Assembly: GCA_017477005.1 (NCBI GenBank)
Contig: JAFUXY010000380.1
Location: 1-10,549 of the forward strand
From: Lachnospiraceae bacterium
GTDB taxonomy: Bacteria > Bacillota > Clostridia > Lachnospirales > Lachnospiraceae
DNA: 10,549 bases
Direction of reading: 5' to 3'
Notes under the pieces: model-generated
The model's input: the letters and a program-made list of their open reading frames with translations, nothing else
The model's database searches: none
Told to the model about the DNA's origin: nothing
Position numbers and translations under genes: made by a program
Shown here: piece after piece, positions 5,477-10,549 of the stretch
How positions within the stretch are numbered: position 1 is the first letter of the stretch
Layout of the letters: each line of letters begins with the position of its first letter

Positions 5477-7135
5477 ATGGAGAAACAGGGGAAGAAAACG
5501 GATCGAAAAAAGGACCTTTCTCCGTGGCGATGGCGCCTGGTTTTGGGACTGGCGCTGCTGCTGGCGTTGAGCGGCTGCGAATATTTGCAGCCATATAAGG
5601 ATCCGAGCGAGCTCGAGGAGTCGGACGAAGAGACGGAGGAACTGTCGGAGGATGAGATTGCGGCGGAAAACGCTGCTTCGACAGAAAATACCACTTCAAC
5701 AGAGAAAGAATTGGCGGATTCTGCAAATCAGGATTACCAGGAGCTTTTGCAGGACGAATATATGGTTATGGACTGGAGCGATGGCGAGGAGAGGGTGATT
5801 TTGAAGAGCCTGACGACCGGCCGCCAGTATCGTTTTGCGTTCGGCATGGCTACGAAGTTTTTGGACAAATGGGGGAATGTGACGAGCCAGACCAATTTTT
5901 CGAAGGGCAGTGTCGTGAGTTTGAGCGGCGTGCAAGACAATATGCTCGCCACGATCTCGCTGTCGAAGGACGCATGGGTGATTGAAGGACTACGCAATTT
6001 TTCCTTCAATATAAAGAAGGAAACCTTTCAGGTGGGGGAAACAAAATACCGCTTGAAGCCCGATGTCAGTGTATTTTCAGACGATCGCAGTATTACGATG
6101 GACGAGGTCTCAACGGACGATCGCTTGCGGGTCGTGGGAAAGGGAAAGACGATCCTGTCGATTACTGTGGAGACGGGGCATGGGTATATCTCGCTGCAGA
6201 ATACGGAGTTTTTCAATGGGAGCATCGTGTCAATTGGGACAAAAATCCACGCAATGTTGAATGGAGATACAACTGTATCGGTGCCGCAGGGGAAGTATCG
6301 AATTACCGTGGCGAAGAATGGTTATGGCGGGTCTACGAAGGTGCAGGTGCGAAAGGACCAGACTACTTATGTCGACCTGAGTACCTTGATCGGTGAGGGG
6401 CCGAAAAAATGCCAGCTTCATTTTGTGGCTTCGGTCAAAGGGGTGAAGGCGTTTTTGGATGGCGAGAAATCCAAGGTCAACAAGGATGTGGAGGTGGATT
6501 ATGGCGAGCACAAGCTGCGGGTGGAGGTGCCAGGTTTCCAGCCGTGGACGAAGAGCCTGATTGTGAACTCGCCTTCGGCAAGGATTTCCATTGATCCGAC
6601 GGCGGAGAGTATTCCGCTTCCGGTTTCTGTGACGGCGTCGGATAATTCCAATTCCAAAAAGCAAAAGAGCAATAATGCTTCCGGGAGTGATGGGGACGGG
6701 GCGAATGCGTCAGATAGCGCGCAGAGCAATACGTCCGGACAAAATGCGACCAATAATACCACTTCCAGTCAGACGACGCAGAATCAGACGGGCGGAAGCA
6801 CGACCGGCGGCACAACGACGAATAACACACAGACGACGAGTTCGAATACTGGACAGACGGGGCAGACAACGGGAGGCAGTCTGACCGGTGGCTCGGCCAC
6901 GACAAACACGACGAATACCGGGCAGACGTACAATACGAATGCACAGAATACGTCGGAAGACAGCGCTTCGGGGACGGATCGGTATGCCGGAGGGGGTTAT
7001 GGCGGGAGCACGACGAATTCCGGGAGCGATTATGGCGCACAGGCTGGTGGGAATAATACGAACGCCGCCACGCAGCGGGAGTTGGATTACCTTGACACGC
7101 TTTCGAATATGATCGATGAGCTGACGGGGGAGTGA
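5477..7135 (+). CDS. PEGA-type repeat lipoprotein with Thr/Asn/Gly/Ser-rich tail
   Basis: A 552-residue predicted lipoprotein exposed at the cell surface. A basic N-terminus is followed by a hydrophobic stretch (about 21-33) and a lipobox L31-S-G-C34. Residues 46-80 are acidic. Residues 85-240 are a beta-rich region I cannot name. Two PEGA-like units follow, at about 241-302 (GKYRITVAKNGYGGSTKVQV, threonine-rich edge, ending in YVDL) and 312-373 (GEHKLRVEVPGFQPWTKSL), matching the usual pattern of a G-x-Y/L-x-V core, then G-Y/F, then paired strands. Residues about 388-530 are low-complexity, rich in Thr, Asn, Gly, Ser and Gln, and probably act as a flexible wall-spanning stalk. A short helical ending (RELDYLDTLSNMIDEL) closes it. 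The ATG is 3 nt after the cca stop, so it shares the proS-cca transcript although its job appears unrelated. The PEGA call rests on pattern only. Confidence 0.85.
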   Translation: MEKQGKKTDRKKDLSPWRWRLVLGLALLLALSGCEYLQPYKDPSELEESDEETEELSEDEIAAENAASTENTTSTEKELADSANQDYQELLQDEYMVMDWSDGEERVILKSLTTGRQYRFAFGMATKFLDKWGNVTSQTNFSKGSVVSLSGVQDNMLATISLSKDAWVIEGLRNFSFNIKKETFQVGETKYRLKPDVSVFSDDRSITMDEVSTDDRLRVVGKGKTILSITVETGHGYISLQNTEFFNGSIVSIGTKIHAMLNGDTTVSVPQGKYRITVAKNGYGGSTKVQVRKDQTTYVDLSTLIGEGPKKCQLHFVASVKGVKAFLDGEKSKVNKDVEVDYGEHKLRVEVPGFQPWTKSLIVNSPSARISIDPTAESIPLPVSVTASDNSNSKKQKSNNASGSDGDGANASDSAQSNTSGQNATNNTTSSQTTQNQTGGSTTGGTTTNNTQTTSSNTGQTGQTTGGSLTGGSATTNTTNTGQTYNTNAQNTSEDSASGTDRYAGGGYGGSTTNSGSDYGAQAGGNNTNAATQRELDYLDTLSNMIDELTGE

Positions 7136-8432: not shown

Positions 8433-8702
8433 ATGATTTCTATGATAAAAAGTAATGAAATGGAGACTCCTCAGGCTATTGAGGAAAGATATCCACATTG
8501 CAAATATATTTTAACAGACTTTCAAGACTTGAACCATATGCAGGGGCATCTGTACGCAGTCAGCGATGGAAAAGATTCTTTCCGTGAGCTATGCGAATTA
8601 TCAGATGTGTTAACGGATGAAGGGGTTATATGTATTATCATGGGTGAGTACGAAGAAGGAGGGATGATGATCGGTGTACAGCGTGAATTCAAAAAACAAT
8701 AG
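8433..8702 (+). CDS. Small protein of unknown function, partner of retropepsin 1
   Basis: An 89-residue acidic protein with no signal peptide or membrane segment. GGGAGGTGA (8418-8425) lies 7 nt before the ATG, an excellent SD, so I keep the first ATG over the in-frame one at 8442. The middle has a helix-like segment after a DGKD turn (residues about 45-60: DSFRELCELSDVLTDEG), then a strand (VICIIMGEYEE). I recognise no family. It overlaps the following retropepsin gene by 29 nt, in a different frame, so translation is probably coupled. The downstream small protein at 9361 has a loosely similar DG-x-D turn, helix, then strand ending in YE, which suggests, weakly, that the two are distant paralogues. 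Possible roles, as inference only, are protease substrate, inhibitor or adaptor. Confidence 0.75.
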   Translation: MISMIKSNEMETPQAIEERYPHCKYILTDFQDLNHMQGHLYAVSDGKDSFRELCELSDVLTDEGVICIIMGEYEEGGMMIGVQREFKKQ

Positions 8703-9096
8703 AGTTACTGTCCAATGTAATATACTGAAAAAGGGACGAATAAAATTTCTAGAAGCTGTATATGATACGGGAGCAAGATACACTTGCTTTCATGCCTCAT
8801 TTATCGATTCATCTTTGAAGGAAGAGGAGTTCAAAGATGAAGAGTGCAAAGCTTTGTCCGGGTTCGTCGGCAGTCAGGCATCGATATTTTACAAGTTCGA
8901 GGTAGACCGATTTGCGTTTGGCAATATAGATCTGTCAAGTCAGTTTGTATGGATTACATTTGATCCAGATGTGACATCGAATGTGGTAGGGCTTGACATC
9001 ATAAGGCGACTGACAAGGCTTTCAATTGGGGAAACCGATGAAATCCGTTTCTTTGAATCCATAGGGGAACTAAAACGATTTGTCGAAAACATATGA
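8674..9096 (+). CDS. Retropepsin-like aspartic protease 1, single domain
   Basis: A 140-residue soluble protein with the retropepsin pattern. The catalytic motif is D31-T-G-A in AVYDTGARYTCF, a flap-like segment GFVGSQ lies at 63-68, and the hydrophobic-Gly core VVGLDI (104-109) sits where retropepsins have ILG-x-D. With one DTG it would need to dimerise to be active. The GTG start at 8674 is 10 nt after AAGGAGGG (8656-8663), lying inside the previous gene; the ATGs at 8664 and 8667 belong to the other frame. There is no signal peptide, so it should act in the cytoplasm. Its partner is the small protein just upstream, and a paralogue lies at 9603. Retropepsin-like enzymes in bacteria are known but mostly uncharacterised; the substrate is unknown. 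Confidence 0.8.
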   Translation: MYSVNSKNNRVTVQCNILKKGRIKFLEAVYDTGARYTCFHASFIDSSLKEEEFKDEECKALSGFVGSQASIFYKFEVDRFAFGNIDLSSQFVWITFDPDVTSNVVGLDIIRRLTRLSIGETDEIRFFESIGELKRFVENI

Positions 9097-9360: not shown

Positions 9361-9606
9361 ATGGTTACGAAATATAGAAATCCGAAGAAAGTGTCAGTCA
9401 CGGATTATCTGGCAAATAAAGAAAATTCAGGAAGGGTTGCGGTTTTCGACCTTGGAATACCTGCAATAGTGGCGGAAGGCGATGGGACAGATTGGGTTGA
9501 ATTAGAATTGATGTATGAAAGTCTGCGAGAGCAAGGCGACTATGAGCTTGTCATAGTTCGGGGATACGAGCCAACGGTCACGAGATTTGAGAGGTTGCCT
9601 GTATGA
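9361..9606 (+). CDS. Small protein of unknown function, partner of retropepsin 2
   Basis: An 81-residue soluble protein with no export signal. The N-terminus is basic (VTKYRNPKKVS); the rest is acidic, with strand-like VAVFDLGIPAIVAEG, a DGTD turn, a helix-like stretch (WVELELMYESLREQG) and strand YELVIVRGYE. GGAGG (9353-9357) lies 3 nt before the ATG, a short but usable spacing. Its stop overlaps the retropepsin 2 start as ATGA, showing translational coupling. No family recognised. The order and rough pattern match the small gene at 8433, so it is probably the equivalent member of a duplicated and strongly diverged pair. No promoter fits between the upstream terminator and this start, so transcription likely comes from read-through. 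Confidence 0.75.
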   Translation: MVTKYRNPKKVSVTDYLANKENSGRVAVFDLGIPAIVAEGDGTDWVELELMYESLREQGDYELVIVRGYEPTVTRFERLPV

Positions 9607-10130
9607 CAGAACTTATTTTTCGAAAACATCAGTCCGGTTTTATCGCTCCGATTAAAATAAGCAAAAACCAGAATGCCATTATGCAGCTAGACACCGGTTC
9701 CCCAATAACGGTTATATCGATACCGGACATTTTGGCGCTTACGGAAGAAAAGCTATCGCTTTTCAGAATTCGTGTAGAGCAGTGTATCAACAAATACGGT
9801 ACGCTGGATTTTGGCGTTTATGGTTCGCAAATTACAAGGGTAAAGCATTTGTTTGTGCCATATGTAGTCAAGGACATCGAAATAGGCCATACAAAGGTGC
9901 CGAGATTTATGTTTTGGGTAGACGTGACGTTCTATAACAAGATGCAAATAGAACCGACTTCTATACTTTTTGGATATGATTATGTTTATTTTGGAAAAAA
10001 GTATTTTGATAATGACGATAGTTTTCATATTCAGATAGACAACATTTCTCCTGATACGAAATCTATAGGCTACGCGTTATCTAATATTGATGATAGAATC
10101 GATGAGATTGCGTTGCTTATGAGGTGGTAA
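9603..10130 (+). CDS. Retropepsin-like aspartic protease 2
   Basis: A 175-residue soluble protein. The catalytic motif is D30-T-G-S in MQLDTGSPITVIS, a stronger match than the DTGA of copy 1. A flap-like segment GVYGSQ (71-76) shares the GSQ core with copy 1, and ILFGYD (121-126) takes the ILG position. It is longer than copy 1 by a bigger segment between DTG and GSQ and by a C-terminal tail from about 135. The gene is notably AT-rich compared with the housekeeping genes. Its ATG overlaps the small-protein stop by 4 nt, and a terminator follows. It would act as a dimer in the cytoplasm; substrate unknown. The family call rests on the motif set and on its match to copy 1. Confidence 0.78.
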   Translation: MTELIFRKHQSGFIAPIKISKNQNAIMQLDTGSPITVISIPDILALTEEKLSLFRIRVEQCINKYGTLDFGVYGSQITRVKHLFVPYVVKDIEIGHTKVPRFMFWVDVTFYNKMQIEPTSILFGYDYVYFGKKYFDNDDSFHIQIDNISPDTKSIGYALSNIDDRIDEIALLMRW

Positions 10131-10134
10131 TATC

Positions 10135-10187
10135 CAGTGCCAAAGAAACTCCTTTGAAGAGAAATAAGGATTTTGGACTGTTTTTTT
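10135..10187 (+). terminator. Intrinsic terminator ending the retropepsin region
   Basis: CAGT plus CCAAA (10135-10138 and 10140-10144, one bulged G) pair with TTTGG plus ACTG (10172-10180), followed by seven T (10181-10187). The loop holds an inner hairpin TCCTT/AAGGA (10150-10154 with 10166-10170). It begins 5 nt after the retropepsin 2 stop and is unrelated in sequence to the repeated terminator at 8361 and 9312. Confidence 0.7.
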
Positions 10188-10208
10188 GATTCTTTCCCCA
10201 ATTTTTGT

Positions 10209-10237
10209 TTGCAATTTCCAAATAAAGGTAGTATAGT
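10209..10237 (+). promoter_or_regulatory. Strong sigma-70/SigA-type promoter
   Basis: TTGCAA (10209-10214) and TATAGT (10232-10237) are separated by exactly 17 nt; four of six and five of six bases match the consensus. It lies just after the terminator of the previous region. Transcription should begin near 10244, leaving a leader of about 275 nt before the ATG at 10521. Confidence 0.75.
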
Positions 10238-10262
10238 ACTATCGTTACCTATGCGGTGACCC

Positions 10263-10395
10263 GTGTTCGATTCGTGGCTATGTCCTTCTGACCAAAGGAT
10301 ATTCGGACGCAGGGGCTGCGGTGGACAAGATTCAAATCCGATATGTGGCTACATCCTTCTGACCAGGGGATGGATCGGAGGCGGAGTCGAAGTCC
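10263..10395 (+). ncRNA. Tandem structured leader RNA, candidate new cis-regulatory element
   Basis: Two stem-loop units lie 71 nt apart. Unit 1: outer stem GTGTTCGA/TCGGACGC (10263-10270 with 10303-10310), bulge ending GTGGCTA (10274-10280), inner stem 10280-10287 with 10295-10302, loop CTGACCA (10288-10294). Unit 2: outer stem TCCGAT/ATCGGA (10337-10342 with 10374-10379), bulge ending GTGGCTA (10345-10351), inner stem CATCCTT/GGGGATG (10352-10358 with 10366-10372), loop CTGACCA (10359-10365). Unit 2 is extended by GATTC/GAGTC (10329-10333 with 10384-10388) and GGAC/GTCC (10323-10326 with 10392-10395). Bulge and loop are identical while stem pairs change in step (T-A to C-G at the base, G-U to A-U next). 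The 3-base TGG/CCA match between bulge and loop could add a tertiary contact. I match it to no riboswitch class that I know. Confidence 0.6.
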
Positions 10396-10430
10396 GGGGT
10401 AGCGAGGCAATGTTGTTTAACGAAAGGAGG

Positions 10431-10489
10431 CTAGTCGAACTTGGTGAGAACGAGCGGAAGCGAAGTTTGAGCCATAGAGAGACTGTCAT
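10431..10489 (+). repeat. Dispersed intergenic repeat, copy 2
   Basis: Carries CTAGTCGAACTT (10431-10442) and GAGACTGTCAT (10479-10489), as at 2439-2487, with a different 36 nt middle made of purine-rich GAGCGGAAGCGAAG-type sequence. It is followed by CCGAAGCGAAGCG and then the SD of the next gene. GACT (10481-10484) and TCC (10489-10491) can pair with AGTC (10510-10513) and GGA (10506-10508), which would bury that SD. Confidence 0.6.
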
Positions 10490-10520
10490 CCGAAGCGAAG
10501 CGAAAGGAGAGTCAACAAGC

Positions 10521-10549
10521 ATGAAAAGAAAGTGGAATCAGTATTTAGC
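10521..10549 (+). CDS. Start of an unidentified gene, cut by the window end
   Basis: Only the first nine codons are present (MKRKWNQYL, then two more bases). AAAGGAG (10503-10509) lies 11 nt upstream of the ATG, a good SD. The basic opening would suit the n-region of a signal peptide or a membrane protein, but that is a guess from nine residues. It is the gene controlled by the promoter at 10209 and the structured leader, so its identity would help explain the leader. Confidence 0.6.

Follow-up and report, generated by a model that had tools for sequence, protein, structure and literature searches.

A candidate modular 5' leader RNA ahead of giant secreted-looking protein genes in a Lachnospiraceae draft genome

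T-box antiterminators carry a bulge containing UGGN on their 5' side, beneath a small hairpin. In Campylobacter, the S-layer genes form a surface-antigen family with a conserved promoter and 5' region. Among riboswitches, the glycine and guanidine-II classes place similar aptamers next to each other, as adjoining hairpins of a 5' leader with conserved unpaired nucleotides (excerpts of PMC9481103), and protein-binding leaders such as those of ribosomal-protein genes (candidates in the excerpted part of PMC8040213) consist of a short structured element shortly upstream of putative target genes.

The leader described here shares a feature with each of these. Like the tandem-aptamer riboswitches, it has two similar adjoining hairpins with constant unpaired nucleotides; it differs from them in matching no Rfam class, in having been found in one genome and one gene family only, in its variable number of units, and in the lack of a visible expression platform in the window leader. 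As in ribosomal-protein leaders, a short structured element lies shortly upstream of putative targets, but the linked genes encode secreted-looking proteins with Big_2 and fn3 domains, and nothing in them points to an RNA-binding product that would regulate its own synthesis. The UGGN-containing bulge is on the 5' side beneath a small hairpin, as in the T-box antiterminator, but it comes with no T-box match and, in the window leader, with no terminator. Paralogous surface proteins lie downstream of a conserved cassette, as in Campylobacter; in contrast to that system, six places here each have their own copy of the promoter, with unlike upstream sequence (compared by eye).

The reading that I tentatively prefer, at slightly under an even chance, is that this is a modular structured 5' leader RNA of a lineage-private family of giant secreted proteins with Ig-like domains, and that its units are putative sites for a trans-acting factor.

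Promoter, leader and gene start

The window, meaning the whole stretch of DNA analysed (10,549 nt), is an entire contig of a draft genome that comprises 538 contigs and is 76% complete. Other contigs of this same genome are designated C509, C332, C39, C534, C391, C4, C48, C189 and C211. The features near the end of the window are as follows.

10209..10237, + strand: promoter, with TTGCAA at 10209-10214, a 17-nt spacer and TATAGT at 10232-10237
10229-10241, + strand: 13-nt palindrome TAGTATAGTACTA, overlapping the -10 box
10244..10520, + strand: putative 5' leader of ~275 nt, placed from the -10 box and ATG positions; related leader pieces occur on 7 contigs
10260..10314, + strand: unit a hairpin, from the whole-leader fold and covariance model R1; 5' bulge TTCGTGGCT 10271-10279, inner stem 10280-10287/10295-10302, loop CTGACCA 10288-10294, outer stem 10260-10270/10303-10314 with A10311 bulged
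10315..10403, + strand: unit b hairpin, from the whole-leader fold and R1; bulge ATGTGGCTA 10343-10351, inner stem 10352-10358/10366-10372, loop CTGACCA 10359-10365, P1 10337-10342/10374-10379, lower stems 10329-10333/10384-10388, 10322-10326/10392-10396 and 10315-10319/10399-10403
10429..10487, + strand: third module, GGCTAGTCGAACTTGG...GAGCCATAGAGAGACTGTC, recognised by DNA similarity to the C534 and C391 leaders
10505..10510, + strand: Shine-Dalgarno AGGAGA, preceding the ATG at 10521
10521..10549, + strand: start of the downstream gene, MKRKWNQYL..., truncated by the contig end 29 bases in

An earlier reading of this stretch, made from the sequence only, had placed a promoter with a 17-nt spacing just upstream of two stem-loop units and a gene start downstream. 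Both are found, as TTGCAA-17-TATAGT and as an ATG at 10521 preceded by AAAGGAGA. A transcript from this promoter would start at about 10244-10247, and the units would then be transcribed as 5' UTR. A 40-nt block including the promoter (10209-10248) occurs at six places genome-wide, the window included (0 for a reversed-pattern control), and its copies differ at one position only, with A in the window and G in the other five. A unit lies downstream on the same contig for five of the six blocks, while the sixth contig, C391, ends first. The palindrome TAGTATAGTACTA falls inside the block common to the six copies, and may be an operator for one shared regulator.

Since the window is the whole contig, the downstream gene is cut after 9 codons. 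Positions 10502-10540 match the gene start of C509 over 39 nt (87%), and because its start, Shine-Dalgarno and leader resemble those of the giant-protein genes, I infer that the gene encodes a further member of the paralogous group of giant secreted-looking proteins that C509, C332 and C39 carry. The third module, which follows the units, is 76% identical over 59 nt to the start of the C534 leader, and identical to the C391 leader across the 16 nt which C391 reaches; in both of these leaders it adjoins the promoter. Its two-sequence consensus fold scores -14.5, against -7.0 when shuffled (z -2.8, p 0.01).

Unit copies and the linked proteins

A repeat search of the window returned one direct-repeat family, at 10268-10300 and 10339-10371 (33 nt, 82% identity, spacing 71), in agreement with the two units 71 nt apart that had been described as sharing a bulge and a loop. 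The coordinates given for these proved exact: GTGGCTA (10274-10280 and 10345-10351) and CTGACCA (10288-10294 and 10359-10365) are identical in both units. The inner stems carry the full compensation and the G-U to A-U change that had been claimed, with pair T10281-A10301 of unit a replaced by C10352-G10372 in unit b, and G10282.T10300 by A10353-T10371. Two more inner-stem pairs switch from U-A to U.G. The outer stems are unlike in sequence and both able to pair, as had also been proposed, and in the whole-leader fold the two units form back-to-back hairpins (10260-10314 and 10315-10403). When 10244-10420 is folded in isolation, the inner stems are retained but the outer stems are replaced by unit-to-unit pairing (z -1.06), and thermodynamics alone is therefore no proof of the structure. 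Single-unit folding gave z of -1.64 flanked and -1.05 core for unit a, and -1.30 flanked and +0.57 core for unit b.

A nucleotide search within the same genome located leader pieces on C391, C534, C4, C48, C509, C332 and C39. These hold, with the window, nine unit copies: two in the window, two in C332, and one each in C509, C39, C4, C48 and C534, the last being cut by the contig end. All are paralogues within one fragmented draft genome. As C39, C4 and C48 share an identical 141-nt stretch, C39 may be the continuation of C4 or C48, and the independent units number 8 or 9. The covariance model R1 was built from five of the nine units, which amount to only 3 distinct sequences within the shared core. 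The cut C534 unit and the two units of the window were excluded deliberately, and C48 as identical to C4. R1 recovers unit a (48.9 bits, E 3.2e-9 genome-wide) and unit b (40.8 bits, E 4.9e-7 genome-wide), both outside its training set, as well as six full units (five being its own training set) and the unit cut at the C534 end. Ahead of the C332 units lies what may be a diverged unit whose hairpin is longer (14.4 bits, E 0.17), and a stretch related to it is seen by eye in C509, C4 and C48. Two further weak R1 matches occur in the same genome (E 0.13 and 0.30); in the stretches extracted, R1 gave nothing for them at 1e-4.

A gene start is on the same contig for six of the nine units (two in the window, two in C332, and those of C509 and C39); C4, C48 and C534 end before any gene, as does C391. 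The path from promoter to start codon is complete in the window and C509, where the unit is seen between the promoter and the start codon of the gene family, and the C332 and C39 contigs begin within the leader, without a promoter. Alignment of the window leader with that of C509 (E 1e-3) is limited to the promoter, the unit plus GCGGAGTCGAAG, and the Shine-Dalgarno and start; the unit therefore persists amid a diverged remainder. The order of modules differs among leaders. The tandem architecture described in the earlier reading is not fixed, with two clear units in the window and C332 and one in C509. GTGGCTA is invariant in the 6 aligned units, and loop length varies among copies by a single base. 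Because single-base indels distinguish the copies, the idea that the unit derives from coding sequence was dropped.

In C509, both C332 units (C332a and C332b) and C39, the unit is followed by GGAGG, 8 nt and an ATG, giving the short open reading frames listed here.

L049 8334-8383: short ORF, peptide MRSRSPG
L050 139-187: short ORF, peptide MREFAAVDGRLLAF
L050 311-360: short ORF, peptide MRSRSPE
L051 (C39) 90-139: short ORF, peptide of 27 aa

This arrangement would suit a translated attenuator: GGAGG, as the 3' strand of the inner stem, would serve as Shine-Dalgarno for a peptide MRSRSPG/E, and translation of that peptide would open or block the leader. I consider it very unlikely: the start is absent from both window units, the peptides measure 7, 14, 7 and 27 aa with only those of C509 and C332b nearly agreeing, and the one-base variation in loop length also argues against it.

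On C509, C332 and C39, the leader runs into a giant open frame, each encoding a paralogous secreted-looking protein. The C509 protein has 2,677 aa from its ATG, that of C332 has 2,043 aa up to the contig limit, and the C39 open frame spans 2,590 aa. All three show, by eye, a signal-peptide-like start and a Glu-rich segment. Big_2 passes the Pfam cut-off in C509 and C39 and narrowly misses it in C332 (21.7 vs 22.8 bits), and fn3 passes it near the C terminus in C509 and C39. The C39 frame is broken in the signal-peptide region (L051 ~273-360), at a stretch of seven consecutive G that is five long in C509 and C332; this is either phase variation or an assembly error. Residues 1-697 of the C509 protein match 4 places in their own genome and none among 40 relatives. 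Residues 1-900 gave 3 matches in a database of 5.77 billion proteins, attributed to C509, C332 and C211 of the same genome; this search was non-exhaustive, as scoring was limited to the 7,992 candidates with the most words in common and the C39 protein was absent from the matches. An 87-residue N-terminal query matched weakly on C202, C289 (twice), C388 and C102 (E 3.6e-4 to 0.024), which I take as similarity of acidic composition.

Structural evidence for the unit

When the 6 distinct of the 9 rows are compared, 95.7% of pair cells are paired and 3 pairs show two-sided changes, against 29.4-63.4% and zero two-sided changes in slid-partner controls. Letter shuffles frequently reach the observed values (two-sided pairs 49/500, covariation score 64/500, paired percentage 141/500), and covariation alone is therefore weak evidence. 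In a placement test, all four variants tested keep more pairs than is usual when the same number of stem changes is placed at random (p 0.0046, 0.020, 0.021 and 0.053); these values are non-independent, since the commonest row served as common reference, and the cut row was left out. Each window unit has 5 stem differences from the commonest unit; of 13 pairs, one window unit retains all 13 (p 0.0046) and the other 12 (p 0.053).

Shuffle tests of the consensus fold gave z -2.71 and p 0.025 for six of the nine units with their flanks, and p 0.065 for the core of five units. They gave no signal for the 3' segment of four leaders (p 0.6), the H module (0.26), the S module (0.575) or H plus unit (p 0.125). 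RNAalifold, applied to the 6 flanked units in a MAFFT alignment that misplaces unit b, returned 15 pairs, 2 with a two-sided change and a covariation term of only -0.36. The lower stems of unit b and its counterparts vary yet pair, as GGAC/GTCC in the window and C332, GGGCT/AGCCC in C509 and GGC/GCC in C39. They also show an A-U to G-C exchange between copies, the base after GAAG being T with a lower-stem partner A in the window and C332b, and C with a partner G in C509 and C39.

P1 plus P2 is the predicted minimum in four of the nine flanked pieces (both window units, C509 and C332a) and in four of the nine cores (both window units, C509 and C332b); copies of the C39/C4/C48 type pair the bulge or flanks instead, and the C534 copy is cut. 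In predicted ensembles the loop bases UGACC stay unpaired in the 6 units that four leaders contain (at least 0.91, except one U at 0.43). Most of the bulge is paired in C332a, and part of it in C39 and in window unit a. The structural evidence overall is moderate and mixed, and the hairpin structure of the units is probably real.

The strongest rival to the preferred reading is that of a passively copied cassette, duplicated upstream and homogenised by recombination among paralogous surface-protein genes, with hairpins that are by-products, or DNA homology for gene shuffling, and have no RNA function. The identical stretch in C4, C48 and C39, the contigs that end inside leaders, the variable module order, the presence of units in one genome only (within the searches made), the modest folding z-scores and the shuffles that often equal the covariation all speak for it. 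Such copying accounts less readily for the pairs that the window units keep despite five stem changes each, and for an invariant GTGGCTA in six units while the flanks between units no longer align between the window and C509. I regard it as rather unlikely. Hits within one repeat family and without stem covariation had been named beforehand as the outcome that would speak against a regulatory leader; the hits do belong to one repeat family, but some compensating changes are present among them.

Distribution and interpretation

No match to Rfam 15 was obtained for the window at the gathering threshold, 10150-10549 gave two weak hits only (E 3.1, far under threshold), and the C332 and C509 leaders gave none at E up to 5. 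These scans covered the window, C332 and C509 leaders, and within that scope the Rfam comparison that the sequence-only reading had proposed yields no known class. The T-box gave nothing at E up to 10 in the leader of the window, nor at E up to 5 in those of C332 and C509, and the window leader contains 0 terminator-like sites. A tRNA-sensing element, in which the UGGC of the bulge would pair with the NCCA end of a tRNA, has in its favour the resemblance of the bulge under its short hairpin to the T-box antiterminator; given these two negative results and the multiple units per leader, I consider it extremely unlikely.

In other genomes, R1 found the unit in 0 of 298 from the family and 0 of 391 from the order, and R2 in 0 of 397 from the phylum, all at E 0.01, in overlapping samples and under Infernal's stricter filters. 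R2 gave weak matches in 3 of 39 relatives, at 4 places (E 0.18-0.46). A bare motif pattern matched in 16 of 41 genomes; of its 10 places in the window's own genome, nine are units and the tenth, on C189, has no R1 match up to E 1, and the matches elsewhere were attributed to chance (28 places, vs 74 for the reversed control). With a tighter pattern, named genomes gave 11 loci and viral contigs 0. Only 3 of these 11 reach E 10 with R1 (10.5-16.1 bits, the lowest being Butyrivibrio sp. CB08), and all 11 were likewise taken as chance, ~22 being expected by a rough estimate. Phages and plasmids gave no match, and the excerpts of PMC8040213 and PMC9481103 do not mention the element. Within the searches made, it is restricted to one genome and one surface-protein family.

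A metabolite riboswitch is unlikely. The form with tandem small-molecule aptamers, which would explain an invariant bulge and loop on variable stems in two adjacent copies, as the glycine and guanidine-II classes show adjacent similar aptamers (excerpts of PMC9481103), I hold to be quite improbable: there is no Rfam match for the window, C332 and C509 leaders, one genome and one gene family were found in the searches made, the number of units varies among leaders, the window leader has no terminator, and hiding of the Shine-Dalgarno is inconsistent over four leaders. In predicted ensembles this site is mostly open in the window, where GGAG has a probability of 0.55-0.92 of being unpaired, and likewise in C39; it is closed in C332 and intermediate in C509. 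The earlier proposal of an undescribed riboswitch or protein-binding leader therefore stands as regards a leader element ahead of related genes that Rfam does not match, and does not as regards a ligand-sensing class.

That bulge and loop are invariant while the stems vary, that the loop is predicted to be open, and that the units are repeated and linked to one gene family all suggest recognition by a trans-acting factor. Under the preferred reading, each leader would be transcribed from a near-identical promoter and contain at least one hairpin unit of ~50 nt, in which the GUGGCUA bulge and UGACC loop are fixed and the stems variable. Bulge and loop, possibly joined by a short UGG/CCA or UGG/CCG pairing, would form the recognition surface for a factor, probably an RNA-binding protein, which would set the translation or stability of the family members together, and several units per leader would raise avidity. 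Both the binding and the effect on expression are putative; as the window leader has no terminator-like site, its units no upstream open reading frame, and the leaders no consistent hiding of the Shine-Dalgarno, an effect on translation or stability is suggested by the anatomy of the leader.

A broader version, which I find unlikely as a whole, is a species-private RNA regulon, in which a new ~50-nt hairpin, perhaps a small pseudoknot between the UGG of the bulge and the CCA or CCG of the loop, has been copied, as a single unit or as a tandem, into the leaders of giant surface proteins; a dedicated factor would read it, and the whole coat, made of a protein family without known relatives, would thereby be controlled together. 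If the units are RNA control sites, they would represent a young cis-regulatory RNA caught while spreading within one gene family, a stage that would tend to escape searches keyed to broad conservation, and they would give a handle on how several giant surface proteins are coordinated in one bacterium. If they are only a homogenised repeat, they call for caution in reading covariation among paralogous copies.

Elsewhere in the window, a scan detected no tRNA or tmRNA. Two small open reading frames (8674-9096 and 9603-10130) carry DTGA/DTGS motifs similar to those of retropepsin-type aspartic proteases, and have no Pfam or NCBIfam match; the frame between them (9361-9606) has no NCBIfam match. 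The protein encoded at 5477-7135 has a PEGA domain and a long C-terminal half that is, by eye, rich in Ser, Thr, Asn and Gln.
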